Below, one piece after another: positions 7,917 to 62,739 of a stretch of DNA of 64,000 nt. The position numbers and the translations under genes were made by a program. Each line of letters starts with the position of its first letter. Position 1 is the first letter of the stretch. Under the pieces are notes generated by a model. That model made no database searches. It had not been told where the DNA came from and was given only the letters and a program-made list of their open reading frames with translations. This DNA is from Sternotherus odoratus (lineage: Eukaryota > Chordata > Testudines > Kinosternidae), in contig JAVMKO010000010.1 in assembly GCA_032164245.1 (NCBI GenBank), positions 33,740,189-33,804,188 of the forward strand, written 5' to 3'.

Positions 7917-7919
7917 GGG

Positions 7920-9610: not shown

Positions 9611-9617
9611 CATGGCT

Positions 9618-10612: not shown

Positions 10613-10639
10613 AGGCCCACTGCTAATCATTCTGTGTCT

Positions 10640-11878: not shown

Positions 11879-11879
11879 T

Positions 11880-16772: not shown

Positions 16773-16891
16773 CTATTGTGATCACTGAGCAGCCAGCCTC
16801 CGCCTCCGTCCCCGTCGGTTACTCCCTCACGCTGAGATGCAGGGCCACAGCCTGCACCTCCCCACAGTACCAGTGGTTCTACCAATGCCAG
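16773..16891 (+). CDS. MALT1-like: Paracaspase exon: first half of Ig1
   Basis: It encodes two bases of a split codon and 39 residues from IVITEQPASASVPVGYSLTL to the end of the C strand. The first Ig cysteine is in LRCRAT and the core tryptophan in YQWFYQ; MALT1 has CCRAT and YQWFK at the same places. Acceptor tctctccag at 16772, donor CAG|GTAAGA at 16891/16892. It begins in phase 1 and ends in phase 0. Two extra cysteines (ACTSP and YQC) are unusual for this domain. Confidence 0.9.
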
Positions 16892-19800
16892 GTAAGACCA
16901 GGGGAAAGCACATCTGCGGCTGCAGGACGGAGGCTCCCCTCCCCACCCCAGCCACGGTGCCACGTGCATCAGTGATGGGGATGGGCAGAGAACACCCCTT
17001 AGCCCTGTCAGTGCAAAGCTTCCATGTCTGAAAGACTGACTGGCCAGGAGTGGGCTGCATCTGGGGGCCATGTGCATGGGCTGAAGGAAGATGGTAGGAG
17101 CAGCAGCTGCCAATCAGATTGGCGTGTGGCAGGGCGGCCTGCTGATTGTTTGTGCTAGCACTGTCTGTAAGGAAGCTGGTAGAGAACAGAGGGGCAGAGG
17201 GTTGGAGGAGGAGCTGAAGGTAGAAAAACAGAGCTGGCCACTGGAGGTGCCGGAGCAGTTCAATGAGATATCGGTTTGTTTAGCAAGGAAGGCAGCAGAA
17301 CTGGAGGAAAAAGAGCAGAGGGGGAAATCCCAAGCTGCTGGCTTCAGAGGTGTTCAGCTCAGGGAGAGGAGCTTGTCCGGGGAGAGTAAAAGCCTGGGGT
17401 TGGGGAGGAAACCAAGGAGTCAGCAAATGCAAGAGAGGCCAGTGTCCTTGAAGGAGGAGGTGGAGAGGCTGGGGGGTCTGTGACTGGGTGAGGGGCTGGA
17501 GAGGAGTGAGTGGCACTGAGGGCTGAGGAGGAATGAAGGCACTGGGAGAAGGGGGGGGCGGTATCCTGTGTCTTGGGAGGGATGAACACATTGGTCCAGT
17601 AATTGTTGTCAAACAAGGGAGCCGGGAGAGGAAGGGAGGCAGAAGAGCTGGAAGAACTGCCAGCAGGGCCAGTGAAGTCCCTTAGGGAGGAGTCGGGGGG
17701 ACAGGTTATAGCCCTCCAAGGGAGAGGGCAGCGAGAGCTGGACCAAGCCAGCTTAGAGGAGGGAAAGGTGCCTGCAGGGGAAGCAGGAGGGTATGAGACA
17801 AGACACGGTGAGGTTCACTGGGGGGCCAAGTGACTGTGCAGGATGGCAGCCTCTTCTCTTGGGCATGCAACGGGAGCCCAGGAATCTCTGCTCTCCGGGC
17901 CTGATTCTCCATTACCTGGCATCTGGAGTCAGTGCTGCACCTGGGCACGGCGCCCAAACCAGTCCCCGCCCATCATTGCCACAGGGGTAAGAGCCTGACT
18001 GAGTCTGCACTGGCATCAGGTGACAAGGGGCCAGATAGCAGAAAATCAGGCCCTCAACATTGATAAAGCAGAGCAGGGCACAGGTGCTGAGAACCAGATG
18101 GAATAGTGACACTGCATCCCCTTGGGCCTGGGCCTGCTCCACCCTCCCCACGGGCTGCTCTGCTCCACTTGCCATTAACATCTGATTTCAGATTCAAACA
18201 TTGGAAACAGCCCCTCTTCCTACGAACCCGCTCCACCAACGTGCAGACCACGCCCACCGTGCCCTTCCTTGGCATTCCCATCCACCTCGGGCAGGCTGGG
18301 CACTCCCCAGCTCACCCCAAATGCTCATCTTGGCGCAGGAAAGGAAGCCAATTAAATGGAGCAGTCTGGCTCAGTCATCTTTGCTGGGATGAATCCTGCT
18401 GCTAGAACAGGTTTGACAAACACGCACAGGAGAGCAGGAATAGGAGCCCCCATCTCTGCATTCACAGCTGTGCTGGATGCTCTCAGCTCCATTTCCCTAC
18501 CTGGCGATACCTGACTCCGTGCTCCGCCTTTCTGGCTCATTCGGATCCATTCTGTCACCAGGACAGTCTGTTTCAGCCAGCCCTACAGCTTACACAGCCC
18601 TGGTGTAACAGAGCTGAGTACATTCTGGAGTTGGCCAGGTTTGGAACCAGGCAGCCAGGAAACCAAAACCTAAGAGAATGGGGGGGAAGCGGGATGTGTT
18701 TGCTTATTCAGACCCATGGTGCATCAATGGCAAGTTGCTGCTGGGAGCTGTCAAATGAGCTACTCTCCCCTTCACCCATCTCTGCATCATCCATCAGTCT
18801 TGTTGAAGCAGGGAGGTTACCATAGCAACGGGAGAATGTCTCTCTCTAAGAGCTCGCTGGTGCCTTTGGGTTACAAACGTACTGGTGAAGAGAAAGGACT
18901 TTGTGCCATGTCCACAAGTTGCATTTTCTTTTCAGTCTGCTTGCTGCCAGATTGTGGGGGCCACGGAGCCAGATTTGCTCATCACTGCAGAGGAAACCCA
19001 ACTGTACATCTGCCGAATCAATGACCTGCACAAAAACGTCACCTTCTCTAACTGGGTGAGAGTAGAGGTCCATCAGCATATTGCCAAAGGTACAATCTCT
19101 TCCTTCCCCCACGTACATAGCCCACATCCCTCTAGTGAGAGCTCACCTTCCCTTAGAACACAGGGACCCTCCGGATATCCTCAGTAGAAGCATGCTAGGC
19201 CAGCCCACCACATGATAACAAGGGAACGCAGGCTCCAGCAATGTGATCCTGCCCAAGTCAGACAGCTGTCTCTGTGCTCCCAAACCTTATGCCCTGATTG
19301 TGTGGCTCTGGATCTCCATGTCTCCTGTTTATAATACTCACCCCAACACCATATTCATCTCTGAAGCTATGAGAGAGGGAGCAAAATTAACACCTGGACT
19401 AACAGATAAAACACAAATGGGTAACTAGCTGGTGCCTGCCAGATCACCAAATCACAGTGGGGAACAGGCCGGCTGGCTCCTTACGCACCTATCTACAATG
19501 TGTAGGGGAAAAAGCCATGTGATCATGGGGAACTTCAATTTAAGGCACATATTCTGCCAGGACTAAAACATCCCTGGAATTTCAAAACATAAATGATGAC
19601 AATTTCTTAACTCAAAAAGAATTGTAGCCAGCATGAGGGAATTCTTTATTGGACCTTGTTGTAAGAGATAAAGAACAGATAATCACAGGACTAAAAATTG
19701 ATGATCGCTTTAGGTACAAGTGTTCATGACTTGATCACATTTATAATGCGCAAATAGAATTAAGTCCAGACTAGTAATAAATATATTTGGTGCTTGGGCC

Positions 19801-22800
19801 AATTTCCCCAAACTGAAAACAATTTATGAGCCAAATGAGCTGGGAGGAAAAATTTAATCAGAAAAATATGAATGATAGTTGGGAATCATTTAGAAAACCT
19901 TACTAAATCCCCCCCCCCCTAATCCCACAACTGAGGAAGAAGGCTGTAGTGGTTAAAACAAATCAGCCTGTCTTAGAGGGGAAGTGAAGGCAACTGTAAA
20001 AAATAAGTTAATATGTAACAAATGGAAGAAAGAGGAAACTGATAGCAATGAAATAAATCAGAAGTTGGAAATTGTTGAAAACCAATAAGGAAGTAAGAGG
20101 ACACAAGGAGAAATTTATGGTCAGCAGAGTTAAAAAGAGTAAGAAGGAGTTTTTAAAATATATTAGGAACAAAAAGAATCCTGACAGTGATACTGGTCAA
20201 GTACTAGCTGGAACTGATAGAATTATCAATAATAATGCTGAAAAAGCAGAAGTGTTTAATACATTCTTCTGCTCTGTATTTGGGGAAAAACAGGTGATGC
20301 AGTCTCCTCATATGGCCATGAGAACACACTTTCCATTCCACAAGTATCTCAGGAGGATGTTAGACAGAAGCTACTAAAGTTAGACATTTTATAATTAGCA
20401 TGTCCAGATAACTTGCATCCAAAAGTTTTAAAAGAGCTAGCCGAGGAGTTTACCGAACCATTAATGTTGATTTTTCATTGTCCTGGAGCACTGGGAAAGA
20501 CTTTCTTCCAGAAGACTGGAAGAAAGCAAATGTGTCAATTTATTAAAAAAGGTAAATGGGATAACCTGACCAGACATCAATCCCAGGCGAAATAATGGAG
20601 CAGCTGATACAAGACTTAATACAGAATTAAAGGACGGTAATGCAAAAGTTTGGTTGTTAAAGATAATAATGTTGACATAAAAGACTTCTGTAAGGCATTT
20701 GACTTGGTACCACCTGACATTTTGGTTAAAAAAACTAGAATATAAAATTAACATGGTACACATTAAATGGATAAAAACTGACCAACTGGTAGGTCTCAAA
20801 ACGTAACTGTAAGTGAGGAATTGTCATTGAAGGGGGTCCTGCGAGGATTGGTTCTTGGCCTATGCTATTTAACATTTTTATCAATATACGGGAAGGAAAC
20901 AAAATCATCACGGGTAAAGTTTGCAGATAATACAAAAATTGTGGGAGTGGTAAATAATGAAGAGGGCAGGTCAGTAATTCAGAGTGATCTGGATTGCTCG
21001 ATAAACTGGACACAAGCAAACAATATGCGATTTAATAAAGCTAAATGTAACTGTCGACATCTAGGAGCAAAGACTTGCAGGCTTGATTAAAAATACACTG
21101 CATAGTGATAGACTGTAGGAGCTTGATCTATTTAGTTTAACAAAGAGAAGGTTAAGGGGTGACTTGATTACAATCGAAGTATCTACACTGTAAACAAATA
21201 TTTACTAATAGGCTCTTCAGTCTAACAGAGAAAGGTCTACTCTAACACAATCCAGTCGCTGAAAGTTGAAGCTAGACAAATTCAGGCTAGAAATAAGGGG
21301 TACATTTTAGGGGGGGGCAAGCAATTAAAAAATTAATCATGATTAATCTTGAGATTAAAAAATAATTGCAATTAATCTGTTAATTGCACTGTTAAACAAT
21401 AATAGAATATAATTTAAATAGTTTGGATTTTTTCTATACTTTAATTATCAATTTCAATTACAACAGACTACAAAGTGTACAGTGTCATATTATTTTTCAT
21501 TACAATTCACCTAGTGCAATCTTTCATGAAAGTTGAACTTACCAATGTAGAATTATTATTTTTACATAACTCCCTTCAGCTGAGTGAGCCCCTGTTTGCA
21601 AGGGAGGATGTATTTTACCTCAAGAACTTGCAGCGGAGGAGAGGTGGGTGCAGGGAGACTGAGCTCACCAGGCCCCTGTTCTCTAAGTTTGAGTGTTTCT
21701 CAAACTTTTTGTGCTGGTGACCCCATTTGTACTTTACAAAAAATTATGACCCCCTACTTTCAGCCCCCTTCAGGGCTCCCAGCAAGCTCCTGCCCCTCTT
21801 GGTGTTTTAGCCCCGCCCTTCCCAATGCCTCCTGCCCCACCCAGATCTATGCAATTAACCCATTAATTTTGTTTTCAGTTAATCAGAGGTGTTAACTGTG
21901 AATTTTTAACAGTGAGGGTAATTAACCATTGGCACAATTTACCAAGGGTCATGGTGGATTCTCCATCACTGGCAATTTTTCAATCAAGACTGGCTGTTTT
22001 TCTAATCTAAAAGATCTCTCTAGAGATTATTTTGGGGCAGTTCTCTGGCCTGTGCTCAACAGGAGGTCAGACTAGATAACCACAGTGGTCCCTTCTGCCC
22101 TTGGAATCTATGAACGCCGGGCATAGATGCCTTTAAATCTTGTGTGGAAGATGAGCATGAGTCGGGGCCTGGGGTGCCACTGGGGGGGGAGGGTGCATTC
22201 ATCTTGATGGAAGGGGAGTATTGCAGACTGCGCCATGAGCTGTTTTGGGGAGGCAGAGTGGGATAAAAAGCTTAATTCCAGAAATTGCCTGGTGGATGGA
22301 GAAGGCTTGCTATGGGATAGCTAGAGCATTTGAGAGGCATGGCATGCCTTACAGGGGACGGGAAACACATGGGAAGAATTCACACTTGTGGATTTTAGTG
22401 CAGATGCCAGCTTTGGGGAGCCATTCATCCTCTTTTATCATGCTGTGGCAAAGAAATGCTTTCTAATTCAGTTGTCATGTTGCTTGCCAGGCCTGCTCCC
22501 TGAGCTGTGGCAAGGAGAACCTGTCATAGTCCTCAATCCCACTGCGCCAGAGGTAAAGGTGGGCAAGCCACTCCAGCTGCAGTGTGCCGCTCTGGGGGTG
22601 CCAGCCCCACATTACCAGTGGTACCACAACGGAACCCCCATGAAGCATCAAAAGAAGAAGAAACTCTTGGTAACGTTGTCTTGAGGTGGTTCATAAGCTT
22701 TGGCTCAGTGTAATGGTGCAGGGAGGGGAAATGTCTGGGCTCTGAGCATGAGAGTACTGCCCTCCATCCCAGTCAGCCACAAGAACACAGGAGTGGTTCT

Positions 22801-25800
22801 TGGAATTTCATCTACTGCTGGCTTGGAATAGGCATGAAAGACCTGTGGGTGACTGATATCGTAGTGTGTCATCACCACCTTGGTTACTGGAGCCCCAGAT
22901 GACTGCTTTTCTCCAGCCATGTGGGACATGTCTTGTGGTAGCTGGGACATCCCCCATAGCTTCCAGGGCTTTAGTTTATGCAATCAAGCAAAATTCCATG
23001 CAGTTCCCTGCCTCTTTGGCCTTACAGAAACCACCTTGAATTGAGTCAGGTTTCCCTGCAAAGCAGGCTGTAAGCTCTTTGCACTGTTTGGGTCTCTGGG
23101 GATGGGTGGCCACAGCCCAGGTACCCCCTCTCTCCCTTGGGTGCTGTGACTTTGTAGAGTCCATGTCTGAGTACAGGAGAATCCTAGAAATGAGTGAAGG
23201 GCTCTGCCAGACAAATAGGCGACAATGCACAGCCCTCTCAGGGGAGCAATATAAATGGTCACGTTAAATGGCAAACCACTCCTATACCTGGAGACTCGGG
23301 GGTGCTGCACTGGGGGCATGTCACAGGGTCTGCTGCTCACTGATGCTGCTGCACCTCCTCCTGGTCACTCTGGGGATTAGCTGATTCCACATCGGATGCC
23401 TCCATTCCGCCGCATGCCCTGCCTTCTCTTCCTGGCTCTCGGAAAGGCAAGATGCTCTGTGTTGTGGTTTAGCTCTCTGGCCAAGTCACATGTCCTCCCT
23501 TTCCAGGGTGTGAAAGTCTCTTCCTATGATCAGGCTCAGGCAACCTTCCCATCCAGTGTCACTTCCCCAGTGGCTGACAGAAACCCAGGCCCACCTTCTA
23601 CTCCAGATTAGGGACCCTCTAATTAGCAGCCATGGTTTGTTCCATTCTGGCCCTTACTGCTTCTTTTTTTCCTAACCTGCTAGCCGGCTCTCTCCCTCTT
23701 CTGTGGTTGACAACCCCAAAACTCCCTCCTCCCAGGGAATGACCATAGGTTACTTTGGTGCGATAGCTCCCAAACACCCCTCCCTTCTTCCCAAGAGTGA
23801 CTGCAGCCTCTTGCTTCCTCTCAGCTGCTAGCTTCCTGTCTTTATAAACCCCACCCAGCTCATTCCTCCTCAGCTGGGCTCCCTCATTTATTCAGTCAAG
23901 GGATTACTAAAGCCATTTGATTCACCTAGTTGTGGCCTATTTGGTTAATTAGCCCCTTCTTAGCCTCCATTAACTCCTTCAGGGCAACTGTGGGTGAACA
24001 CCGCATCACAGAGCAGGACACTGTCCTTTCTTTAAACCTTTTTGAACCAGGCTCTCTCGACAGATAAGCAAAAGTGGCCACTATTTTGGGGTGACTCAGT
24101 TACTGGGTGCCCCAGCCATTTAAGAGACACTTTGGGCCTGATTTTGGGAGGTCCTGAGCAGCCAGGAGCTGTGGGTGTTCAGCACCTCTGACAAGTAGGT
24201 TGGTTTCCTGTGTATTCTGTCCATTCCATGTAGTACAGGTTTAGAATCAGACCATCGATGTACCTCCTTGTCCTCTTGTCAGAGCAGGAAACCCCCCCGT
24301 CATTAGTTTGCAGACATGCACGAATCTCCCTACCAGTGTCTCTGGAACACTTTTTATACCGGGGATGCTGGAAGACAGCAAAACTGCAAAGCAGCAGTCC
24401 CCAAAGTTTTTACCTTGCGCCCCTCCCCCTTTACCTCTGTCTGTGTCCCCCTCCCCCCACCTGTAGAGCTCAGGCCAGCAAAAGGACCAGGGTGGGGGGG
24501 GGAGGGGGAAGGGGAGGATGCAGACAGGGACTCTGGGCACAAGGCCAGGAGCAGAGCCCAGGCACAGCGCTGGGAGCAGAGCCCTGGGTGTGGGACCGGC
24601 AGTGGGACCCCAGGTGTGGGCCCTGGGGCAGAGCCCTAGGGCCAGGAGCTGGGACCCCACATGCAAGGCTGAGAACAGAGTCCTGGGCGTGGGACCAGCA
24701 GCCAGGATCCCAGGTGTGGGTCAAGAAGCAGAGCCCCATGTAAAATCTAGGGATGCTGCAGCACCCTCCCACCCCCCTAGTCCCCACACCTATGCTCCCC
24801 ACTGCAGAACGTGGCTGTGATCGTGGGTCTTAGCGAGGTAGGACAGGCTTCATTTGAGGTGTTAGTGTGGGACTCAGGAGATCTGCATTCACTCTGGTTC
24901 TGCCATAGACTCCATGTATGGATGTGGCCAAGTCTTTGTGTAATTCTCCCTTGTCTAGATGGGGACAGCAAGCTCTTTGGGACACGTTCACTATGAGTAA
25001 GGCTGCGAGTTTGTCACAGAGGTCATGGAAGTCACCGATTCCATGACTTTCCGTGACCGCTGTGAGTTCTGCAGTGGCCAGTGCACCTGGCTCAGGGGCA
25101 GCTCTGGCAGCCCCTGCACCAGGGACACCGATGCTGATGGGCAGGCTCGGGCCCCGCAGCACCCCCTCCCCAAAACAATAGAATTTGGGTGTGGGAGAGA
25201 GCAGGGAATTGGGGCATGGGAAAGGGTGAGGCAGTCTCCGGGCAGCACTTACCTGGGGTTCTCCCCAGAAGTGGCAACATCTCCCTTGCTCAGCTGCTTG
25301 GCAGAGGCATGGCCAGGCAGCTCTGCATGCTGTCTCCACCCAGAGTGCTGAATTCACAGCTCCCATTAGGCGGGATCCACAGCCAATGGGAGCTGTGGGG
25401 GCAGTGCCTATAGGTGCCAGCACAGTGGGGGTCCAGGACTGTGCACCACTGAATGGCCTTTCTTTCCACCCCCAGCAGCCAGGCCACCTTCTCTTAGCAC
25501 CCGTGGGGCCCTGGGCACCCTCCCACCAAGTTTTATTCACTGGCATTTTTAGTAAAAGTCATGGACGGGTCACAGGCCATGAATTTTTTGTGTATTGTCT
25601 ATGACCTGCCATGACTTTTACTAAAAATACCCAAAACATAGCCTTAACTATGAGGCCTGATAAGAAATAGTGAGAGGCTTTGGGAAAATGGCTACTTGGC
25701 AGCTGTAATCTGGGGACACAAACTCCAGGTGAAAACAATTTGATGTTACTGTCAATCTCTTCAGATCAACTCTGCAAAACTGAGTGACACTGGCACATAC

Positions 25801-49800: not shown

Positions 49801-52800
49801 AAGTATTTTAAGTTCGTTATTCTTTAAAGGGAATAATGTGCAGGGTTATGATGTCAAATAGTTATTCAAGCACTTCAGTTTAAACACACTGGATTAGATA
49901 AAACAGTAAAACAAGTCTGATAACTACAAAGGGAGAGATTTTAAGTGAGGACAACTCCTGAGGCATAAGTCAGAAATGGTTACAAGGAAAATAACATGTT
50001 TACTAATACCTAACTTAAACTGTATCCGATTCAAGCAAAGCATATGGTGAGAAATTTTTAAAATTTCAGTCCCTATGCTGGAAAACAATTCTAGCTAGGC
50101 ACTAGGAGACAGAGAGTCTATATGGAAGGATGTTCCCTTTTTCTTACTTGTGAGCATCCTTTATTTCCCTTCATCTTGATGACTCTGTTTATTGCTTAAG
50201 GCAAACTAAGTAAAGCACACATTCCCTTGTTTAGGACAGACCTGTTTGCCAACCTCTGTTTGAGCAGGGCTGTGGGGGTTTGGCACATGTGTTAATAAAA
50301 TCATACAGGGAAATGTTCTAACTTTACCTACAATGTTGCCACACATATTTTATCAGGATGATACTGACCAGTAAATAAGTTTTTTCAAATGATACCTTAC
50401 AAGGCATATCGTGTACAAAAATATTACAATAACATGTAGGGTGTGAACACCCGGGTATATTCTGTCACACGTATATCTAGGAACAAAGAATGTAGGCCAT
50501 GCTTACAGGAAAAAGATTTGAGGGTCGTGATGGATAATCCGCTGGTACAACACAGTGACTAAAAGGGCTAATGCATAAACAGGGGAATCTCAAGTAGGAG
50601 TAAAGAGGTTATTTTATCTCTGTATTTGGCGCTATTAAAAATCTTTTAACCTTTTATTAAAGGTAAAGAAAAGAGGGGAACACAGTTAAAGCCTTTACAA
50701 TATAAAATACTAACTAAGGCTCTCATTTTAACAGTGTGCCTTGTTCCTTTTCTCATTAGCTGAGAGAGTTTTTAGAAGGAAGAATCCCCATGTCGGACAG
50801 TCTCTCAGATAAAGCTGGAATAACTGTTCTTTTGGAGAACAGAGAAGAAGTTAGTTGAGATGGGCTGGAGCTGTCGTTATTATTAAGGCCCAATTCCGTT
50901 TCATACCAGGTGGTGGTTGGGAATCAGCTGGAGCCAGTGGATGTGGTGATGTCATCTGGGTCCATTTCTCTGTGCCTGTCGAGTCAGGACATCTCTCAGG
51001 ATCAGGATGATGAAGGCCTGGGGCCCAGGAGATGGTGGGGAAGGGGGTCATAATTGTGAATCTCAACCCACTAGCCAGTTTTTCTGCCAAAGTCTCTTTT
51101 CTTCAAGGACCCCAAAAGGGAGTGATGGGCAGAATAGCCCATCCCCTCATTATTTTGTCCACTAATTAACCACTGGAACAATTTACCAAGGCTCATGGTG
51201 GATTCTCCATCACTGACAATTTTCAGTCAAGGGTGGACGTTAGGTCTGCTCTAGGAATTATTGTGGGGCAGTTTTCTGGCCAGTGTTACAGAGGTCAGCC
51301 TAGGTGACCACAGTGTTCCCTAAAATCTATGAATCATTCCCATCTGCTGGCAGGGGCAAGCAATAAGACAGAGAGTGCTTAGTGTGCTGTGCATTCTGGC
51401 CTCTGCAATGACTTCTCTGATTTCACTTACAGAGTTGCTGAAGGAGACACTGACTTTTCCATGTGGCATCCAAGTGGAGCTGCGGTTCCAGGTGGTTTTC
51501 TCTAACGTAATGCACGTGAGTGCAAAGCTGCAGGCTCCCCCTCCGCATGTCACCAACATCCGACTCCTGCTCTGCAGACCCATGGTGAGCTCCTTCATGT
51601 TCTCAGGCCAGTGTCCTGGACTTCCCCTCAGTCCCTTTCTTCATTGGGATTGAAAAGGCAGCAGAAATAGTAATGCCAGTGCTTGGGCAGGAAGGAGGAA
51701 CAGTGTTCAGGTGGGGTTTGTGTTGTGGGGGTAAAGTTTGGGGGTATATGTCCAGGAAAGGCTGAGGGGCTCAGTGTGTAGAGAAGCTGGGAGATACATT
51801 TGGAGGGGTTGGGAGCCTGGGGTAGTGTTGTCGGGGTAGGTTTGTTCAGGGGCCAGGCAAGGGGCAGCGTGTGTTGAAAGGCTAGTTGGGGATGAGCTGC
51901 AGAATGGGCATATCACTCTGTTTGTAGGGTGTCTGGCAGCCCTCTGGGGAGAACTACATTTCTGACCATCATAAAGTGGGGGGTCTGGGTGTCTTTGCTC
52001 TGCCCAAGGACACTCACTTAGTGAGGAAGAGAGTCCTGCCTGGGATCCTGTAGTCAGCAGGAATCAGCTATGCCTGGACCCGACGTGCTCCAGCATGGGG
52101 ACAGAACACCACAGGCTGGTTTGAGGCTGTATCCTGGTGACAGAGATGCTGGAGGGATGTCAAATGCTACTGGAGACAGCGGAGTGCCATGCCCTTCCCA
52201 GAGGGAGGAGCCCGTGTGGGCTGAGTGACATTGCATGAGCAGGGTCTGAAGGGCTGTGAGAAGAATGCTTCCCAGGAGTGTGTTCCTCTTATGGGAGGCG
52301 CTAGCCATCTACAGCAGCAGCAGGCCCAACCAGCACCAACAGGGGCCCATTTCACCCCTCCTGGGAGGGATGGCCCTCCGCTCCTGGCAGCAGTCAGGAT
52401 GAGCGACCCAGGACATCCCCTGAGGCTGTCCTGCGTTCCATCAGTGCAGGCCACAGAACAAACGTCCTCAATGCAGAGGCGATGTGCAATGCCAAGGGTT
52501 TGTTTATCTTTCATGTAGCTGTGTTTCCAATGTCTCTTGATTTACCTCAGAGTTACATTCAAGCCGGTGAAATCACATTTTTCTTCAAGTGATCACACAT
52601 GTCCCTTCCACGGTAGGGTTTTCTGTGCTCCCGTGCATAGTTGTCAGAGAGTTTTTATCTTTAGCAGTAGGCATAAAGGGCTGAGTTACCCCAGACCCTC
52701 CTCAGTTCCTTCCTGTTGCCCATGATGGTTGTTGGAGCTCCCTGGCCTTGCTTCTGCAAATCTTTCCTGTTATCTGCATATAGCACCTGTGTATTGTTAG

Positions 52801-55800: not shown

Positions 55801-58800
55801 AAGTCCGATGCATCCAAAATCCGTTTTTTCGGGGGCTGGCTGCCGGCTCCCGGCTGCCGCCCGGGTCCAGGCAGCGGGCGGGCTGGCTGCCGGCTCCCCG
55901 CTGCCTCCCGGGTCCAGGCAGCGGGCGGGCTGCCTGCCGGCTCCCCGCTGCCTCCCGGGTCCAGGCAGCGGGCGGGCTGGCTGCCGGCTCCCCGCTGCCT
56001 CCCCGGTCCAGGCAGCGGGCGGGCTGCCTGCCGGCTCCCCGCTGCCGCCCGGGTCCAGGCAGCGGGCGGGCTGCCTGCCAGCTCCCCGCTGCCAGCCCGC
56101 CCGGGTCCTGGCTGCTGGGACCCGGGCGGGAGCCGTCAGCCAGCCTGCCCGGGTCCCGGCTGCTGGCTGCCGCCCGGGTCCCAGCAGCCGGGACCCGGGC
56201 GGGCGGGTGGGCTGACGGCTCCCGCCCGGGTCCCAGCAGCGGGGACGTGGGCGGGCTGACGGCTGACGGCTCGCGCCCGGGTCCCAGCACCCGGGACCCG
56301 GGCGGGCTGACTCACGGCTCCCAGCTGCCGTGATAGTTTAGCATTATACAGTAAAACCTCGATATAACGGACTAATTTGGGCGGGCTGCTCGTTTTTTTT
56401 ATTATTATTAAATAACGGACTTTTGGCTTTAACGGACACCCCCTCACCTGAATTAGTCCATTATATTTTTTACTGTACTGTGTTGCTAATCCAGTCGCTC
56501 TGTGCAACTCCAGTGCTAGCTCACAGCGTGGCTGCTCTCACTTGAGCAAAGCTAACTCAAAGTGTTAACTCATGCTCATTCAGCAGAGAAGACATTGCCT
56601 AGTCACTCACCTCCCACCAGAGGCCAAACAGAACAGAGCAGCAATTTCAGATGGTTTGAAGTAACTGACCAGGGGGTTGGACTGGGCATGGAACTCCACC
56701 TCTTTACAATGCTCTGCTCTCCCCTCACCAGCAAGAATGCTGCCCTTTAAAGTTTCCTCCTAACTCTTTGCCTCAACCATTGTTGCTCTTTTCTGAACTC
56801 CCTCCCATCTGCATCTCTCTGGTGCACCGAGTACTTGGAAATAGACACATCTTCAGGTCAGGTTGGTTTGTACAAAAATAGTCTGCAAGGTGTTTGCAAT
56901 TACCCACTTCCTCCACAAAGAAGCCTGAATCGTGATAACAGGAGCTAGGTCACTGATGGCTTCTGTTCATGCAGCAAACCCTCCTGCTGTCACTAGCCCT
57001 TAATGCACGGACAATCCTATTAGCAGCAGGGTCTGAACTCAGGAGTTTCAGCACCAGTGCATCAAGCCTGTGCCAAGACTCCACAGCTCCCCATGTGCCC
57101 AGATGAGAGATCAGAGGGGATGTGAAAATTGCTGTGACATGCCCACTTGTTCTCTCTTGCTGCCAATGTCACTTTTTACACCCCCTGCCCCATTCTGAGG
57201 GCTGTACCACATTACAACTGCCCGCAATGGCCACATGGCATTGAACAGCTAGCTCGGGGTCAGTGCAGCATCAGTCCCATCCCTGTACACTGACTGCAGG
57301 GGGCTTTGGTGGGGAACCAGCCCGTGCCACAACAGTTCACACTTGGCTCGGGGTAGGCTCCTCGGCCATTTGGCCGCTCGTGCAGCCAGCGAGAACAGCC
57401 AGCACACCTAAGGATCTGGCCAAGCCTTTTAGGGTACCTCCACCCAGCCCATGTCAGTGAGCTTCCCAGCCCCGGTCGACAGACTGTGGTTAGCGGGGCT
57501 CACACCAGTTCTCAAAACAGCTCTGCAGACAGCGCTTTGAAGTAGTGGCTTGGGCTGGAGAGCAGGCTCTGAAGCCTAGGAAGTTGGGTGGGCTTCAGAC
57601 CAAGCTGAACATCAAAACACTATCTACACAGCTATTTTTAGCACACCAGCGCAAGCCCTGCTAACCTGAGCTGGGAGGCTTGCTTCTGGGCTGTGCAGAC
57701 ATTACCCATGAATTTGGAGAGGCTGTTGTAGTGGCTGGAACATGCCACCAGAGGCCCTCATGATCCCACAGAGCAGCCAGCGTATTCTGGACACCCTGTT
57801 AACCAAGGGGTAGGTAGGTAACATCAAGTAGGGAGGTACACTTTTTTTATTACGATCTTTATGCTGGCAAAAGGCCTACAATTCTCTGGCTGCTTTGTGC
57901 CACCAGAACAGCAAAAAGTGAATGCTCAGAAACTGTCCCTGTGTTCTCACAGTTCCCATTTGTAGCATTTGTATTAGGAAATGCAGGATTTACCTTAACC
58001 AGAGCTCTCCAGGCAAGTCCAGCCCCAGATACTGCTGCGTATGAGTAGCCAGGTGTATGTGTATGGGGGGGGGGGGGTATTACTGGGCTTCTTTGGCTTG
58101 CGCTGAAAATGCTTTTTTGTTTGTTCTTGTCTGTCTGCCCCAGGAGGTGCAAGAACTGGCCATGCTGAGTGACATCCAGTCTGACCGGGTGGTGTCGCTA
58201 CTTGTCTCACTGTATGAGCAAGAGGAATTGGACGGTGTGCTCCGGCTCTGTGGCCTACAGAAAATTCAGGTAAAAAAACCATCCTCTGGGGAAATCTCGC
58301 TGAGAGAGCGGCTGGTGCCTTCCAGACCGTCCTTGCAGGAGACATCCATCATCCTCACACATTCCTGATGTGAAGGGAAATACTGCCTCAGATATGGCCT
58401 TGGTGCAGCGGCCTCTCCCTGGGCCTTGAACTCTCCTGTGGCAGATTAATGACCAAGCCAACACCTCTGCTATTGGGGCAATTCACTGCTGGGGCACAAA
58501 AGATCTGTCCCCTGTGCTCACACTTCCTTTCTAGCCTCTGAGGCCAGACAGCATATTTTCCCCAGTCCTTTTGGTTTCAAATAGATGGCTGGGCCACAAG
58601 CAAGGCCCATTATTGGCTCCTTTTTCTAGCCTGTCGCCAAGAGAGCTCATTTCAGTGGAAGCCAGGAAGTCCAGTAGGTAGATAATGGGCCAGATTCACT
58701 GGTGGTGTAAGCAGATGCAATAACACAGGGCATGTCTTCACTACCACTTTAATTCGACCTTAACGACGTTAGGTCGAATTAAAGGTGTACCTGTCTTCAC

Positions 58801-60177
58801 ATACATGCCCTTAAAGTCGATTTAAAGGGCCCTCAAGATCGATTTCGGAACTCCTGCCTAACGAGAGAAGTAAGGCTAAATTCAACATTACAAGCTCGAC
58901 TGTGGGCTAGTGAAGAGGCATCAGAAGTTAAGCCTCCGACCTCCAAGCAGCCCCGCGAGGGGGGGGGCTGTTCGGGGGGGGGCTGTTCGGGCGGGGGGGG
59001 GTCCGCGGGGCTGCTGAGGGGGGGGGGAAGCCCGCGCGGGGCTGCTTGAGGGATCGGCTCAGCTGTCTGGTCAATTTCACCAGACAGCTGAGCGGATAGC
59101 CCCGCGCCGGCTCCCCCCCCCCCTCGGGCGGGGGGGGGGTCCAGCGGGGGGCTGTTTGGGCGGGGGGGCTGTTGGGGGGGCTGTTCGGGTGGGGGGGGGG
59201 TCAGCGGGGCTGCTGAGGGGGGGGGGGAAGCCCGCGCGGGGCTGCTTGAGGGATCGGCTCAGCTGTCTGGTCAATTTCACCAGGCAGCTGAGCCGATAGC
59301 CCAAGCAGCCGCGCGCTGGCTCCCCCACCCCCCCTTGGGCGGGTGGGTACGGCGAGGGGGGGGCTGTTCGGGCAGGGGGGTCCGTGGGACTGCTTGGGCG
59401 GGGGGGGGGTCCAGCACGCATTGCACTGTGGGCTACCTACCCACAGTGCAATGCGGGCTATGTCGACCCCCTGCAAAAGTTCAAGGACAGACAGTGTCGA
59501 CCACTGTCGACCTGCTGTCCTGGTGGGGACACACTGATTCGATTTTCTAAACTCGAGTTTAGAAAATCGAATTAAGGGAAATCGACCTAGACCTATAGTG
59601 AAGACATACCCACAATTAGCTAGTAGGGAATTTGTCCCAGTGAAGTTTGTCAGTGACCTGGGTCTCCTGGCCAGAGTTGCATGCTGCAGACAGTGTTTCG
59701 AGGCAGCGAGCTCCCAAGAACATCCAGACCTTTGGTCCCTTGCTGGTGGTTGAAGTGAAGCCTGCTTTAGGTTTTCATCTCTGATTCGCTTTGTGCCCTC
59801 TGCTCTTCCCCCAGACTGATGTGCTGCTGCAGCTGGATTTGCATTACACCCAGCTGGGCAGCAAGCAGAGGGTGTGCGAGAGTCTGCAGAAAATCCTCCA
59901 GAAACCTCTGCTAGCAAAACTGTTCAGCCAGAAAATCTCTGCAAATCCATCCTGCGTGGCAGCCCAAGAGGCTGCTGCCACCACGTGCCCCAAAGAGGCC
60001 TCTGCTGTGAATGCAGCCCATGAGGGGCCCAGATCTCTGAGAGCAGAGCCCAGCCACAGCTGGCAACGTAGCAGCCAGTCAAACATCTGCAGCGAGCCAG
60101 AGGAAAACGACGAGAGTGACCTGAGCAGCCTCTGCTCTGCGCTGCAAAGGGCTGGCCTGGGGCAGGATTGTCCTTGA
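16773..60177 (+). CDS. MALT1-like: MALT1-like paracaspase (paralogue absent from mammals, PCASP2/PCASP3 class), 13 exons
   Basis: Coding exons: 16773-16891, 18936-19089, 22491-22669, 25765-25861, 30690-30716, 33586-33789, 41679-41856, 46508-46582, 46748-46875, 48097-48228, 51433-51584, 58144-58269, 59815-60177. All have AG acceptors and GT donors, every junction keeps phase, and no stop occurs in about 643 residues before TGA at 60175. Domain order: Ig1, Ig2, short linker, caspase-like domain, Ig3, acidic tail, as in MALT1. The catalytic His is in YYAGHGYE and the Cys in LLDTCRKW. Asp in ITDVFEL, Asp in LLDTC and the last Glu of AEAYE match human Asp365, Asp462 and Glu500, which bind the P1 arginine. 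MALT1-type proteins cleave after arginine and act as scaffolds for TRAF6 in BCL10-dependent NF-kappaB signalling in the cytoplasm. Flanking ALPK3 rules out MALT1 itself, which neighbours ALPK2. The N-terminus is missing from this model. Confidence 0.93.
17091..17833 (+). other. Coding-like stretch in intron, origin unknown
   Basis: An open frame of 130 codons (17091-17480) encodes a charged, helix-favouring sequence with phrases such as ARKAAELEEKEQRG and SLKEEVERLGGL. After a break, a second frame (17603-17830) continues with AEELEELPAGPVKSL and LDQASLEEG. The composition is like a coiled-coil or gag-type protein with frameshifts. I do not recognise the family. It lies in the intron between the two Ig1 exons and has no matching splice phase, so it is probably a decayed element and not part of the paracaspase. 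Confidence 0.35.
18936..19089 (+). CDS. MALT1-like: Paracaspase exon: second half of Ig1
   Basis: It encodes 51 residues plus one base, with the second Ig cysteine in QLYICRIND and the G-strand in NWVRVEV. The usual DxGxYxC signature of Ig domains is altered to EETQLYIC; MALT1 has DAGFYVC. Acceptor cttttcag at 18935, donor AAAG|GTACAA at 19089/19090. A second possible acceptor in the same frame lies at 18950 and would remove five residues, two of them cysteines. Confidence 0.88.
19490..22113 (+). mobile_element. Degenerate CR1 LINE interrupted by other elements
   Basis: Remnants run in order. At 19510-19730 there is an endonuclease-end phrase GNFNL and a SLLDLVV motif. At 20070-20600 comes the linker and start of the reverse transcriptase. 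At 20820-21060 comes an RT palm block with FADNTK, followed at 21890-22113 by a 3' end with ggaatctatgaa. Many frameshifts and stops; dead. A second repeat (21310-21890) splits the RT from the 3' end. The whole lies in the intron between Ig1 and Ig2. Confidence 0.8.
21310..21890. mobile_element. AATTAATC-rich non-autonomous element inserted in the CR1
   Basis: The left part is built of repeated ATTAATC/GATTAAT motifs in both orientations, followed by an AT-rich stretch with caaagtgtacagtgtc. I recognise this as a repeat common in turtles. A different repeat starting near 21690 (ctcaaactttttgtgctggt) appears nested in it, and gcaattaacccattaat sequence returns near 21850. No coding capacity. 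Confidence 0.55.
22491..22669 (+). CDS. MALT1-like: Paracaspase exon: first part of Ig2
   Basis: Two bases and 59 residues covering the A to D strands of the second Ig domain. VKVGKPLQLQCAALG carries the first cysteine and HYQWYHNG the tryptophan, close to MALT1 LVLQCVAVG and HYQWFKN. A basic run of lysines precedes the donor. Acceptor tgcttgccag at 22490, donor TTG|GTAACG at 22669/22670; phases 1 in and 0 out. Confidence 0.92.
24390..24800. repeat. GC-rich element with imperfect tandem repeats
   Basis: The segment begins agcagtccccaaagttttta, a start seen in other non-autonomous elements here. From about 24530 to 24740 it has degenerate repeats of a phrase like gggaccagcagtgggacccc and ggagcagagccc, about 45-65 bp apart. 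Non-coding, in the Ig2 intron. Confidence 0.5.
24998..25646. mobile_element. Intact non-autonomous hAT element (TAAGGCT family), copy B
   Basis: The element is flanked by a perfect 8-bp target-site duplication ACTATGAG (24990-24997 and 25647-25654). Its ends are short inverted repeats (TAAGGCT). An internal hairpin at about 25546-25627 is formed by two copies of tttttagtaaaagtcatgg in opposite orientation. The 8-bp duplication assigns it to hAT. It ends about 120 bp before the second Ig2 exon. Confidence 0.85.
25765..25861 (+). CDS. MALT1-like: Paracaspase exon: second part of Ig2
   Basis: It encodes 32 residues plus one base. LSDTGTYLCCAANG contains the canonical D-x-G-x-Y-x-C Ig signature with a doubled cysteine. 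Acceptor tctcttcag at 25764, donor GTAG|GTGAGC at 25861/25862. It ends in phase 1, as does the next micro-exon. Confidence 0.92.
26050..26640. other. Repeat-like AT-rich to GC-mixed stretch, possibly an LTR
   Basis: It begins after a short CA run (26041-26060) and contains TTTATT-type sequence at 26088 that could be a polyadenylation signal read on the minus strand. A possible antisense LTR resembling the one at about 35700-36400. No internal gag or pol sequence; unproven. Confidence 0.3.
26640..29380 (+). other. Paracaspase intron without recognised genes
   Basis: I see no exon or RNA gene here. A GT run followed by a poly-G tract lies at about 28170-28204 and G-rich runs at 28788-28812. 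The GC-rich part 27860-28560 has repeat-like composition but no borders I can define. Confidence 0.4.
29388..29695. mobile_element. Non-autonomous element related to 31275-31340
   Basis: It starts near ccagtatttgttaaccagta and ends tgagaactgctggcctgagc. The end phrase ttgaataagtggttgccag is repeated at 31284, so the two share a family. hAT-like, non-coding, borders approximate. Confidence 0.45.
30690..30716 (+). CDS. MALT1-like: Paracaspase 27-nt micro-exon between Ig2 and the protease domain
   Basis: The exon encodes GTCLDDLFF between a good acceptor (ctttttgcag) and the donor TTTG|GTGAGT. It is 27 nt long and phase 1 on both sides, so skipping it leaves the frame intact. It sits where human MALT1 has exon 7, an 11-codon cassette that is alternatively spliced and adds a TRAF6-binding motif. 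No PxE motif is visible in this version. Its small size makes it less certain than the other exons. Confidence 0.72.
30955..31275 (-). mobile_element. DIRS-type retrotransposon end, antisense
   Basis: The start cagttctttgagtgattgtc matches the reverse complement of the end of the DIRS fragment at 33060-33090 (gtggaatggacacg...ctcaaagaac). A similar antisense piece lies at 52565-52810. Non-coding terminal sequence. Confidence 0.65.
31320..32035. mobile_element. Non-autonomous GC-rich element ending in gatgtggccctcgggcc
   Basis: The end phrase resembles that of 11310-11878, and the centre is made of short repeats of the type ccccagccctgatccccctc. No coding capacity; the long open frames in it reflect composition. 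Confidence 0.45.
32050..33110 (+). mobile_element. DIRS retrotransposon fragment with tyrosine-recombinase remnant
   Basis: At 32385-32840 an open frame encodes VRRALAFYLDRTRPFKSS, then a HAVRQ box (the H-x-x-R of tyrosine recombinases) and ADICRAATWS, all typical of DIRS recombinases. The position where the catalytic tyrosine is expected reads TAHCAIS, so the enzyme is inactive. After the frame comes the element's 3' terminal repeat (32780-33110). The reverse transcriptase part is missing. Confidence 0.8.
33586..33789 (+). CDS. MALT1-like: Paracaspase exon: start of the caspase-like domain
   Basis: Two bases plus 67 codons and one base. KVALLVGNNHYWNHPHLMAP begins the domain, followed by ITDVFELSLLLKRLGFRVVS and LLDLNKAEM, close to MALT1 throughout. 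The Asp of ITDVFEL matches human Asp365 in the P1-arginine pocket. Acceptor tttctgccag at 33585, donor TATG|GTAAGT at 33789/33790. Confidence 0.96.
34886..36440. mobile_element. 26-bp-TIR element, copy B, with a nested insertion
   Basis: The left end gatacagtttccaaatatat and internal phrases such as catgaatcagggc and cagagctcctgtgtg match copy A at 1283-2305. The right end (gatcatagaattaaagactg) reappears at 36410-36436, separated by about 700 bp that copy A lacks. That block is therefore an insertion. Confidence 0.6.
35695..36405 (-). mobile_element. LTR-like insertion nested in copy B
   Basis: The block has no equivalent in copy A of its host element. It has a TTTATTTTAACAATATGG stretch at 35937 (a possible AATAAA signal on the minus strand). 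The assignment as a solo LTR is a guess based on size and composition. Confidence 0.4.
36690..38085 (+). mobile_element. Penelope-like element with GIY-YIG endonuclease, split by a solo LTR
   Basis: An open frame at 36769-37071 encodes SAIYIGQTRQSLRKRINGHK and continues to a conserved EHFNLSGHS box; this is the GIY-YIG endonuclease domain at the C-terminus of Penelope-like polymerases. The segment at 36690-36769 is an inverted copy of 36880-36960, giving a foldback at the truncated 5' end. The tail (37975-38075, tgcatccggtgaagtgggct...aagcttatgc...tgccacaagtactcc) follows after the inserted LTR. The reverse transcriptase is lost. Confidence 0.82.
37247..37947 (+). mobile_element. Solo LTR, probably Ty3/Gypsy, inserted in the Penelope-like element
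   Basis: The sequence starts TGTGACAGAGTCAGACC and ends GCCACA(A), with TG...CA borders and AT-rich flanks consistent with a 5-bp target duplication (tatat). Its start is one I recognise from Gypsy LTRs of turtles. No internal region remains, so it arose by recombination between two LTRs. Confidence 0.7.
38690..39515. mobile_element. 26-bp-TIR element, partial copy C
   Basis: The left end tacagtctttaattacatga at 38750 matches the left TIR of copy A. Later phrases such as ctgcctcattcactacac and gcatagg-type sequence are shared in part. The right end could not be found. Confidence 0.45.
39877..40745. mobile_element. Tigger/mariner-like non-autonomous element, copy B
   Basis: It starts CAGTAACTCCTTACTTAAAG after a TA, the typical end of a Tigger-like family of turtles. 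The interior matches 1-960. A further CAGTGGCCCTCGCTTAAA end at 40749 suggests a second related copy cut short by the CR1 end that follows. Confidence 0.65.
40768..40872 (-). mobile_element. CR1 3' end, antisense
   Basis: The reverse complement reads gttggtcctgctttgagcag, ggggttggactagatgacct and ends in a bgattctgtgatt-type terminus, the classical CR1 3' UTR. The sense copy of the same segment is at 61510-61607. Confidence 0.85.
41294..41550. repeat. Minisatellite of five units upstream of the catalytic exon
   Basis: The motif cacacctg (or close variants) starts at 41301, 41361, 41417, 41477 and 41533, so spacings alternate 60, 56, 60, 56. The higher-order period is 116 bp. Units share ctctgaggtgttg and a G/A-rich part. 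The array ends about 130 bp before the acceptor of the exon with the catalytic residues. Confidence 0.8.
41679..41856 (+). CDS. MALT1-like: Paracaspase exon: catalytic His and Cys
   Basis: It encodes FYYAGHGYEHSGRNYMVPID through to LILLDTCRK. The His of AGHGYE and the Cys of LLDTC form the dyad (human His415 and Cys464); the Asp two residues before the Cys matches Asp462. Both catalytic residues are in this one exon. Acceptor ggtttgcag at 41678, donor AAATG|GTAGGC at 41856/41857; the codon for Trp after CRK is split across the intron. Confidence 0.97.
42000..43480 (+). other. Paracaspase intron, nothing recognised
   Basis: No exon, RNA gene or assignable repeat. A short duplicated phrase (tagccctcccctgggtgtca) occurs twice in tandem at about 42246-42290. 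Confidence 0.4.
43490..44345 (+). mobile_element. Penelope-like element with GIY-YIG remnant and inverted tails
   Basis: It starts with an antisense tail (43490-43605). There follows a sense region encoding a decayed GIY-YIG part (YIGQTGQSLRKR-like at about 43800-43860, then VGEHFNLPGHTIKDLKV), and last a sense tail (44245-44342). Tails in opposite orientation at the two ends are characteristic of Penelope-like insertions. A frameshift lies near 43900. Confidence 0.82.
44621..45192. mobile_element. Intact non-autonomous hAT element with perfect TIRs and target duplication
   Basis: The ends are a perfect 16-bp inverted repeat, CAGGGCCGGCGACAGG and CCTGTCGCCGGCCCTG. They are flanked by a perfect 8-bp duplication CCTATGAG (44613-44620 and 45193-45200). 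Both features define hAT. The centre (44640-44970) is built of C-tracts of up to about 17 bases alternating with ctcctgcc(g/t)cccg units. A palindrome around 45110-45170 contains gtacagctgtac. The perfect ends suggest a recent insertion. Confidence 0.93.
45201..46507 (+). other. Paracaspase intron, nothing recognised
   Basis: No exon or repeat could be assigned in this part. A short GT run lies at 45736-45753. Confidence 0.4.
46508..46582 (+). CDS. MALT1-like: Paracaspase exon: core strand after the catalytic Cys
   Basis: 75 nt coding for YNPQCALSQVQPLEPWGNTV then YGYA, ending two bases into a Thr codon. MALT1 has a loop and NIVFGYAT here. Acceptor catctctag at 46507, donor CCAC|GTAAGT at 46582/46583. 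The loop after CRK, which follows the active site in MALT1, has a quite different sequence. Confidence 0.9.
46748..46875 (+). CDS. MALT1-like: Paracaspase exon: C-terminal part of the protease domain
   Basis: The intron before it is only 165 bp. It encodes SEDAEAYEVQDGEFSSGIFM and continues KYLKKHILQKKKVTHVLEDV. The last Glu of AEAYE matches human Glu500 of the substrate pocket and GIFMKYL matches GIFMKFL. Acceptor ttcgaag at 46747 has a poor pyrimidine tract; donor GAAG|GTAAAT at 46875/46876. Confidence 0.94.
46960..47860 (+). mobile_element. Degenerate CR1/L2-type LINE remnant
   Basis: Broken RT-derived phrases occur in order: a lysine-rich start, aaaaggctctagaggtg (also at 62882), an ANDSGAV remnant of the FADD box (47557-47585), DRDLGVAAGQL and VRKPNKMLGCVRNGM (47670-47780). 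Heavily mutated and without a 3' end. Confidence 0.75.
48097..48228 (+). CDS. MALT1-like: Paracaspase exon: end of protease domain and linker helix to Ig3
   Basis: GKQVMEIKHTLKEARALTDP aligns with MALT1 GKQALEIRSSLSEKRALTDP. Near the end, ELWGHSH followed by EL in the next exon aligns with MALT1 QWAKAHEL, so the Trp corresponds to human Trp580 of the allosteric pocket between protease and Ig3. Acceptor tcccccag at 48096, donor CATG|GTAAGA at 48228/48229. Confidence 0.94.
49060..49578 (+). mobile_element. CR1 LINE remnant with 3' end
   Basis: An RT palm fragment (tcttggccctatgctatgta, then ggcagatgacacacaaagtg for the ADDTQS block) leads to a 3' UTR with ggatggatcacttgatgatt and ends gccattcttatgttctta. 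The terminus is typical of one CR1 lineage. Confidence 0.8.
49580..50460. other. Repeat-like block between CR1 pieces, possibly an LTR
   Basis: The block separates the CR1 3' end at 49578 from CR1-like sequence at 50465. It starts with acaatgccttgctaaag, contains gttacacccagaatgtctgtg, an AATAAA at about 50295, and ends near gtgtgaacacccgggtat. Size and position suggest an inserted LTR, but I cannot prove its borders. Confidence 0.35.
50465..50620 (+). mobile_element. CR1 fragment
   Basis: The frame YLGTKNVGHAYRKK and VVMDNPLVQHSD is the block just after the RT palm of CR1 elements (decayed). It is 5' and 3' truncated. Confidence 0.6.
51160..51332 (+). mobile_element. CR1 3' end
   Basis: It matches 21910-22113 (aatttaccaaggctcatggtg, tctctggccagtg, aaatctatgaatc). 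It stops about 100 bp before the acceptor of the first Ig3 exon. Confidence 0.75.
51433..51584 (+). CDS. MALT1-like: Paracaspase exon: first part of Ig3
   Basis: 50 codons with TFPCGIQVELRFQVVFSNVM, close to MALT1 KFDCGVQIQLGFAAEFSNVM. It ends in phase 0 at CCCATG|GTGAGC (51584/51585); acceptor ttcacttacag at 51432. The next recognised exon also starts in phase 0, so the two may join directly. Confidence 0.93.
52565..52815 (-). mobile_element. DIRS-type end, antisense
   Basis: Phrases ttcttcaagtgatcacacat, ccttccacggtag and gcataaagggctgag parallel 30955-31200, the antisense DIRS end. Non-coding. Confidence 0.6.
52845..53508 (-). mobile_element. Ty3/Gypsy pol fragment (RNase H end to integrase), antisense
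   Basis: On the minus strand from 53500 downward the sequence encodes the ADALSRMNE motif that ends Gypsy RNase H. It then gives a spacer, a zinc-binding-type CSQAKNP segment, and PWSTVSLDFIAELSHSQGCT, the start of the integrase core with its first catalytic Asp. Several frame breaks. No LTR is attached. The integrase is cut off after the first catalytic residue. Confidence 0.78.
53511..54005. mobile_element. pogo/Tigger-like MITE (CAGTAAAACC family), copy B, composite
   Basis: TA-flanked, starting CAGTGAAACCTCGATATAAC and ending in its inverted form. The first 157 bp (53511-53667) are a complete small element of their own, with both ends and a hairpin around ttaaataatt. The rest (53668-54005) matches the GC-rich part of the other copies in reverse orientation. 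It is therefore a composite of two units. Confidence 0.8.
54010..55720 (+). other. Paracaspase intron, unassigned
   Basis: No exon was recognised, although a further Ig3 exon could be expected here by comparison with MALT1. The region 54560-54990 has the mixed GC-rich composition of a non-autonomous element without clear ends. Confidence 0.4.
55733..56475. mobile_element. pogo/Tigger-like MITE (CAGTAAAACC family), copy C, composite
   Basis: TA-flanked. It starts CAGTAAAACCCAGATTTAAC and ends tttttactg. A second left-type end (cagtaaaacctcgatataac) at 56350 shows that the last 126 bp form a small unit of the same kind as 53511-53667. The middle contains the 47-bp tandem array. Confidence 0.8.
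55850..56105. repeat. 47-bp tandem repeat, five units
   Basis: The phrase gcagcgggcgggct starts at 55871, 55918, 55965, 56012 and 56059, an exact 47-bp period. Units are ggctccccgctgcc, tcccgggtcca, then the shared phrase. The array lies inside a pogo/Tigger-like MITE and gives long open frames on both strands that are not genes. Confidence 0.93.
56480..58143 (+). other. Paracaspase intron, nothing recognised
   Basis: I see no exon, RNA gene or repeat border. A G-run lies at about 58062-58078 just ahead of the next acceptor's T-rich tract. Confidence 0.4.
58144..58269 (+). CDS. MALT1-like: Paracaspase exon: middle of Ig3
   Basis: 42 codons ending LDGVLRLCGLQKIQ, which aligns with MALT1 YTRLSSLQKLK. 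The upstream 30 residues, rich in leucine and acidic residues, do not align with MALT1. Acceptor gtctgcccag-type at 58143 after a T-rich tract, donor CAG|GTAAAA at 58269/58270; phase 0 on both sides. In MALT1 the region before this has a PEETGSY TRAF6 site that is not seen here; a further exon between 51585 and 58143 cannot be excluded. Confidence 0.85.
58728..59611. mobile_element. Long hAT-type MITE with duplicated G-rich modules
   Basis: The ends GGGCATGTCTTCACTA and TATAGTGAAGACATACCC are inverted repeats. Next to them are perfect hairpins: ttaattcgacctt with its complement at 58749-58783, and cgattttctaaactcgag with its complement at 59540-59570. In the middle a block with gaagcccgcgcggggctgct, gagggatcggctcagctgtc and tggtcaatttcaccag occurs twice (about 59027-59095 and 59227-59295) among G-runs of 7-10. 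The element ends 204 bp before the last exon. Confidence 0.8.
59815..60177 (+). CDS. MALT1-like: Paracaspase last exon: end of Ig3 and acidic C-terminal tail
   Basis: 120 codons and a TGA stop (60175-60177). VLLQLDLHYTQLG and KPLLAKL match MALT1 LVFTVCLSYQYSG and KPLIAKL at the end of Ig3. The tail of about 85 residues is low in hydrophobics and contains CSEPEENDESD, in which P-E-E-N-D-E (60097-60114) fits the TRAF6-binding pattern PxExx(aromatic or acidic). Human MALT1 has TRAF6 sites in the same tail position but a different sequence. Acceptor tcttcccccag at 59814. Confidence 0.93.
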   Translation, partial: TDVLLQLDLHYTQLGSKQRVCESLQKILQKPLLAKLFSQKISANPSCVAAQEAAATTCPKEASAVNAAHEGPRSLRAEPSHSWQRSSQSNICSEPEENDESDLSSLCSALQRAGLGQDCP

Positions 60178-61608: not shown

Positions 61609-61619
61609 GATAGCACTGC

Positions 61620-62730: not shown

Positions 62731-62739
62731 CTCGCATCG

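Follow-up and report, generated by a model that had tools for sequence, protein, structure and literature searches.

A MALT1 paralogue with no recognised death domain lies beside a probable ALPK3 gene in the turtle Sternotherus odoratus

Gene content of the window

The window analysed here is a stretch of 64,000 nucleotides from the turtle Sternotherus odoratus. It contains a paracaspase gene on the plus strand (15659-60177) whose 14 coding exons join in phase across 13 GT-AG introns and encode 647 amino acids and a stop (Table 1). On the minus strand upstream lies what is probably the first coding exon of ALPK3; the two genes are arranged head-to-head (divergent), with their start codons 8.3 kb apart. 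Databases already list the paracaspase gene, for other turtles among others, as ‘MALT1-like’, and it is therefore not a new gene.

Table 1. Coding exons of the paracaspase gene and the neighbouring ALPK3 exon
Feature	Position	Strand	Basis
Coding exon 1, initiator MPK, phase 0 to 1	15659..15668	+	Turtle orthologues start MPK
Coding exon 2, Ig1 first half	16773..16891	+	tblastn E 7e-5; phases
Coding exon 3, Ig1 second half	18936..19089	+	tblastn weak, E 2.6; phases and orthologues
Coding exon 4, first half of Ig2	22491..22669	+	tblastn E 8e-10; phases
Coding exon 5, Ig2 second half	25765..25861	+	tblastn weak, E 13; phases and orthologues
Coding exon 6, microexon of 27 nt that could be skipped in frame (phase 1-1)	30690..30716	+	Orthologue match; shuffles
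Coding exon 7, first part of the paracaspase domain with the Asp matching D365 of MALT1	33586..33789	+	tblastn E 2e-19
Coding exon 8, His in GHGYE matching H415 and Cys in LLDTCRK matching C464	41679..41856	+	tblastn, motifs
Coding exon 9, paracaspase domain	46508..46582	+	Phase-restricted scan
Coding exon 10, paracaspase domain with the Glu matching E500	46748..46875	+	tblastn E 4e-7
Coding exon 11, last part of the paracaspase domain with the Glu and Trp matching E549 and W580	48097..48228	+	tblastn E 3e-5
Coding exon 12, Ig3 first part	51433..51584	+	tblastn E 2e-4
Coding exon 13, Ig3 middle	58144..58269	+	Phase-restricted scan; fit to next exon, orthologues
Coding exon 14, last part of Ig3 and the disordered tail containing EPEENDE; TGA stop	59815..60177	+	tblastn weak, E 0.52; phases
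Probable ALPK3 first coding exon (MGSRR...SRSYLLSIRPEN)	7330 to about 7161	-	Match to human N-terminus, E 3e-10, 46% identity

Several other features were observed in the window. A reverse transcriptase fragment (RVT_1, E 1e-10), which we take to be CR1-like, occupies 62987-63433 on the plus strand, and a second, sub-threshold RVT_1 trace was found on the minus strand within 1-14997. Stop-masked frames were scanned with Pfam in full for both strands of about 1-15000, for the plus strand of 60001-64000 and for the minus strand of 58000-64000, and in part for the plus strand of 56001-63998 (one frame) and the minus strand of 15001-29998 (two frames); in these frames reverse transcriptase gave the sole matches. 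Rfam and tRNA scans gave no matches. A perfect inverted repeat of 63 nt (2602-2664 and 2703-2765, with a loop of 38 nt) is possibly the remnant of a transposable element, and GC-rich tandem arrays are found at 7616-7912, 44641-44943 and 55833-56311, the last two within introns of the paracaspase gene.

Structure of the paracaspase gene

A tblastn search with human MALT1, the query being a 100% match to its database record, gave seven HSPs at E < 1e-3, all on the plus strand and collinear with the query. In 20 dinucleotide-shuffled windows the best E per window ranged from 0.012 to 4.5. Exons that were weak or absent in tblastn (E 2.6 and 13, for example) were placed by splice sites, phase and turtle orthologues. 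Exon refinement resulted in 12 exons with fitting phases, and adding the 27-nt microexon brought these to thirteen, covering 16773-60177 and about 643 codons. The thirteen exons joining in phase of the original prediction were thereby all recovered. For the middle of Ig3, the candidates topping a first exon scan were false; the exon listed in Table 1 ranked second in a scan restricted to phase 0, and was selected by its fit to exon 14 and later to the orthologues.

The exon at 16773 opens in phase 1, so the start of the gene lies elsewhere. We place it in an exon of 10 nt, ATGCCAAAAG followed by gt, a pattern that occurs once in the window and is directly preceded by an in-frame TAA. The turtle orthologues also have MPK as their N-terminus. 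By chance 0.16 matches to the pattern are expected on both strands of all 64 kb, and since 15 of 100 shuffles also contained at least one match, the weight of the initiator exon lies in its agreement with the MPK start of the orthologues. The earlier description of the gene as complete-looking is right for the thirteen exons, but it fell one exon short at the start and left the missing death domain unremarked.

Seven of the nine residues encoded by the microexon are equal to the corresponding segment of a turtle orthologue. None of 300 shuffles reached seven residues, and 16 of 300 reached four. The microexon lies between Ig2 and the paracaspase domain, at the same place as exon 7 of MALT1, which is 33 nt long and alternatively spliced (PMC4832065). 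One protein of the clade described below (P0086) was flagged as being without the microexon, among the matches listed, and this may be a prediction fault.

The best protein match is Trachemys MALT1-like isoform X1 (P0001), which also has 647 residues and an identical start. It aligns to the model with zero gaps and 608/647 identical residues (94.0%), differing by 39 substitutions, and is a cluster representative from another species. Other best matches, among those listed, were from Natator (607/647, gap-free), Pelodiscus (550/646) and Crocodylus (523/647), followed by birds. In the phylogenetic tree the window protein joins Trachemys and the sea turtles to the exclusion of Pelodiscus and Carettochelys (support 99/97), the position of a hard-shelled cryptodire. 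Judged from its sequence, the turtle gene is intact and most likely functional. Selection had been predicted from the lack of a stop over about 643 codons; the open frame was confirmed but is weak evidence, the gap-free match to Trachemys being better.

Protease and Ig domains

The protein contains a paracaspase (caspase-like) domain (PF00656, E 8e-26), with Pfam matches to Ig_3, Ig_2 and MALT1_Ig before and after it, and these confirm the predicted domain order Ig-Ig-paracaspase-Ig. Conservation was followed in a clade set of 181 proteins, combining the best 120 of 1184 and the best 120 of 1374 matches, and in a MALT1 set made up of the best 120 of 1578 matches to human MALT1, which are mammalian wherever the name was readable.

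Equivalents of H415, C464, D462 and E500 of MALT1 are present in 181/181 clade proteins among the matches listed, and the His and Cys also in the window. In rows with a letter, again among the matches listed, the D365 equivalent is found in 164/164 and that of E549 in 176/176, while the W580 equivalent is kept in 173/176 and changed in three. We take H415 and C464 to be the catalytic pair of MALT1, and D365, D462 and E500 to be its acidic S1 pocket for arginine; the role of W580 is likewise assumed. With equivalents of these three acidic residues kept, an acidic S1 pocket for arginine is predicted. The column of K644, presumably a ubiquitination site in MALT1, is not kept, with Lys in 1 of 31 rows. 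E549 is the dimer Glu of MALT1 (PMC3747146). With its catalytic, S1-pocket and dimer residues kept, the protease looks intact at the level of sequence.

The Trachemys protein as modelled with AlphaFold2 (33 rows; mean pLDDT 69.8, pTM 0.52) matches in fold the crystal structures of MALT1 Ig1-Ig2 (3k0w) and paracaspase-Ig3 (3uo8), which match in sequence too. The active-site loops and the tail (residues 565-647) have pLDDT below 50, and the model is silent on active-site geometry. A protease of the MALT1 type would be expected to cleave MALT1 substrates such as CYLD. Zebrafish PCASP3 has been used as an active control (PMC5978004).

Absence of a death domain

Type 1 paracaspases are described as having an N-terminal death domain (PMC5978004), and that of MALT1, residues 30-121, binds BCL10 filaments (PMC6168461). 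Pfam found no death domain in the window protein or in two shark members of the clade; the death domain of human MALT1 itself is only a sub-threshold Pfam match (E 0.006). Ile5 of the window protein aligns with residue 127 of human MALT1, just past the death domain. The last Met is located 10 residues before the Pro11 column of Ig1 in 140 of 178 clade rows among the matches listed, as it is in the window, and in 22 of the 178 that column is preceded by more than 40 residues. A search of 1-16760 for an upstream death-domain exon, by motif, tblastn and a phase-restricted exon scan, gave only weak, unlike candidates, and Pfam found no death domain in the six stop-masked frames of about 1-15000. 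As the rest of the protein sits among MALT1 relatives, the absence of the domain reads as a derived loss.

Phylogeny and naming

The tree was built from 41 of 301 proteins and the window protein; its MALT1 sample is mammalian only, and PCASP2 is not represented. The clade broadly tracks the species tree, from sharks and rays through ray-finned fishes, coelacanth, lungfish and amphibians to sauropsids, though the branching within amphibians is weak, as is that of crocodile, birds and turtles. Under a midpoint root, mammalian MALT1 falls outside the clade and its branch is long, at 1.8 changes per column. Trees joining MALT1, mammalian only, into one clade with sauropsids (p-AU 0.0004) or with all tetrapods (p-AU 0.008) were rejected; both groupings were picked after viewing a quick tree. 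In one alignment, the identity of the whole window protein is 36.0% to human MALT1 and 48.4% to the shark member P0131 (51.0% when the shark protein was aligned pairwise), and within the paracaspase domain the values are 52.7% and 70.8%. Since the clade extends from sharks to birds, and the identities are closer to its shark member than to human MALT1, the split from MALT1 most likely predates the jawed-vertebrate ancestor.

These results agree with the original prediction of a MALT1 paralogue rather than MALT1, which had named placement in a phylogeny as the check: within this sampling of mammalian MALT1, and with groups chosen after the quick tree, the window protein is not inside the MALT1 clade. 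The absence of the paralogue from mammals, also predicted, has been published as a loss (PMC5978004). Among readable organism names in the matches listed there were no squamates or mammals, with frogs, coelacanth, birds, crocodile and turtles present, and squamates may likewise have lost the gene.

In UniRef, two members of the clade are named ‘MALT paracaspase 3’, one from gar (P0151) and one from medaka (P0168). Both have the PEENDE tail discussed below, and the gar protein starts directly before Ig1, although it is only about 51-54% identical to the window protein. Other members are named differently (‘MALT1 paracaspase’ in Latimeria, ‘gene 1b’ in Nothobranchius), and many are named MALT1. 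The putative PCASP3 label used here rests on the gar and medaka names and on a tree without PCASP2. Compared with human MALT1 (P0182), the paralogue has the same order Ig1-Ig2-paracaspase-Ig3, the catalytic pair, the S1 acids, the dimer Glu, a microexon at the same place and a C-terminal PxExx-acidic motif, whereas the human protein differs in having a death domain, the TPEETG site and the exon 7 TRAF6 site.

Genomic neighbourhood and origin

The predicted position beside ALPK3 was supported by the probable first coding exon recognised upstream, the query being the human N-terminus and the donor position read by eye from the sequence. The exon is found within 7001-7500, the sole CpG-rich segment when the first 44 kb are taken in steps of 500 nt. 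Beyond it no ALPK3 coding exon was recognised in the window, and there was no alpha-kinase Pfam match in the scanned frames. Human ALPK2 and MALT1 are presumably divergent in the same way, and we take ZNF592 to adjoin ALPK3.

In cattle, ALPK2 is flanked by NEDD4L and MALT1 (PMC8391191), and a human 18q deletion removes ALPK2, MALT1, ZNF532, SEC11C and GRP together (PMC5050361). ALPK2 and ALPK3 have been dated to the 1R/2R doublings, and in mammals ALPK2 was relocated to a different chromosome (PMC13143021). Because ALPK3 lies head-to-head with the gene here, whereas the neighbour of MALT1 in cattle is ALPK2, the ohnologue of ALPK3, the window gene is most likely a 2R ohnologue of MALT1 that mammals have lost. 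No description of this synteny, of the ohnologue link to MALT1, of the death-domain loss or of the tail motif was found among the literature titles and abstracts listed, a search that left subscription journals outside its scope.

Other identities for the gene have to be weighed against this. The domain order equals that of MALT1 after the death domain, and databases name many clade members MALT1, as would be seen if this were turtle MALT1 (PCASP1) itself with its death-domain exons missed. The greater identity to a shark clade member than to human MALT1, the rejection of the grouping of MALT1 with sauropsids and the presence of ALPK3 rather than ALPK2 as neighbour make this hardly credible. 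Equally hard to accept is a decaying pseudogene, a reading that absence from mammals, and perhaps squamates, might suggest; the frame has no stop and no frameshift, all 13 introns are canonical and the match to Trachemys is gap-free at 94%. The gene could on the other hand be PCASP2, not PCASP3, in the published numbering, as the tree sample holds no PCASP2 sequence and the reported TPEETG in all three paralogues does not fit the clade (PMC5978004). Against this stand the UniRef names of the gar and medaka members, and we regard PCASP2 as unlikely, though deserving of more weight than the two preceding readings. A PCASP3-clade ohnologue of MALT1 remains the preferred identity.

The tail motif and TRAF6

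Residues 565-647 form a tail that is modelled as disordered and is divergent in sequence. Within it the letters PEENDE are each conserved at 99-100%, and the preceding Glu at 94%, of about 170 rows among the matches listed. In the tail N-terminal to the motif the commonest letter is found in 24-78% of rows, and after the motif in 31 to 91%, highest near the very end, where 105-113 of the rows from the matches listed have letters. The TRAF6 consensus is PxExx followed by an acidic or aromatic residue. It fits 168 of the 169 rows having all six letters; 12 of the 181 proteins from the matches listed are without the stretch. PEENDE aligns with P804-D809 of human MALT1, PVETTD (P804/E806/D809), although the alignment of such divergent tails is weak.

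Signalling in Jurkat cells that carry MALT1B depends entirely on its C-terminal TRAF6 motif, and mutating the Ig3 site TPEETG had no effect there; in MALT1A the exon 7 site can substitute for the C-terminal site (PMC4832065). Among the matches listed, TPEETG occurs in 0/181 clade proteins versus 114/120 MALT1 rows, and the exon 7 site DEAVEC in 0/181 versus 31/120. The E653 column has Glu in 3 of 31 rows. In PMC5978004 the C-terminal TRAF6 site is described as specific to PCASP1, and TPEETG as shared by all three paralogues. This differs from the clade studied here, where a C-terminal motif is present and TPEETG absent among the matches listed. The mismatch could come from a looser alignment in that study or from the naming of the paralogues.

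Two further alternatives concern the ends of the protein. That EPEENDE is some other conserved binding or modification motif, and not a TRAF6 site, is a serious possibility to which we give somewhat less than even odds: conservation of all six PEENDE letters among the matches listed goes beyond what PxExx-acidic demands, whereas the alignment with the human C-terminal TRAF6 site and the fit to the consensus speak for TRAF6. At the other end, the gene might also make a death-domain isoform from unrecognised upstream exons. Exon 2, starting in phase 1, is usable by another first exon, and the length of the N-terminus in the 22 longer rows alone permits a death domain in a few members; furthermore, a divergent, exon-split domain could escape Pfam, which barely detects the human one. 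We nevertheless consider such an isoform improbable, given the lack of a convincing exon in tblastn and the exon scan, the empty Pfam frames upstream and the shared place of the last Met. A protein without the death domain, probably binding TRAF6 through its tail, is the reading followed below.

Proposed function and significance

Overall, the locus is best explained as an intact and most likely functional type 1 paracaspase of the PCASP3 clade, most likely a 2R ohnologue of MALT1, that would signal through TRAF6 without docking on BCL10 (probability about 0.75). From its conserved residues, the paralogue is predicted to be an arginine-specific cysteine protease activated by dimerisation like MALT1. 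MALT1 binds BCL10 filaments through the death domain, which is absent here, so the paralogue would be unable to dock on BCL10 CARD filaments in the manner of MALT1 and would be recruited by another route: its Ig domains, TRAF6, or a dimer with MALT1 formed through the conserved interface. NF-kB signalling would probably proceed via TRAF6, bound by the fixed tail motif PEENDE at the position of the C-terminal TRAF6 site of MALT1.

On a wider scale, we tentatively suggest, as a view that may well prove wrong, that jawed vertebrates kept a second paracaspase pathway, one independent of BCL10 filaments. It would consist of a death-domain-free ohnologue of MALT1 that engages TRAF6 via a single EPEENDE motif, which has hardly changed since sharks and bony fishes diverged, and the gene would have been lost in mammals and perhaps squamates.

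Drugs against MALT1 are of interest in lymphoma and autoimmunity, yet its work as a scaffold is difficult to tell apart from its work as a protease. A naturally occurring relative that has kept the protease and seemingly one TRAF6 site, and has no death domain, would provide a test of which functions depend on BCL10 filaments. The head-to-head position beside ALPK3 suggests that the gene arose in the vertebrate genome doublings, and shows where traces of its loss in mammals may lie. It is the loss of the death domain together with the frozen tail motif that makes the gene worth a test at the bench.
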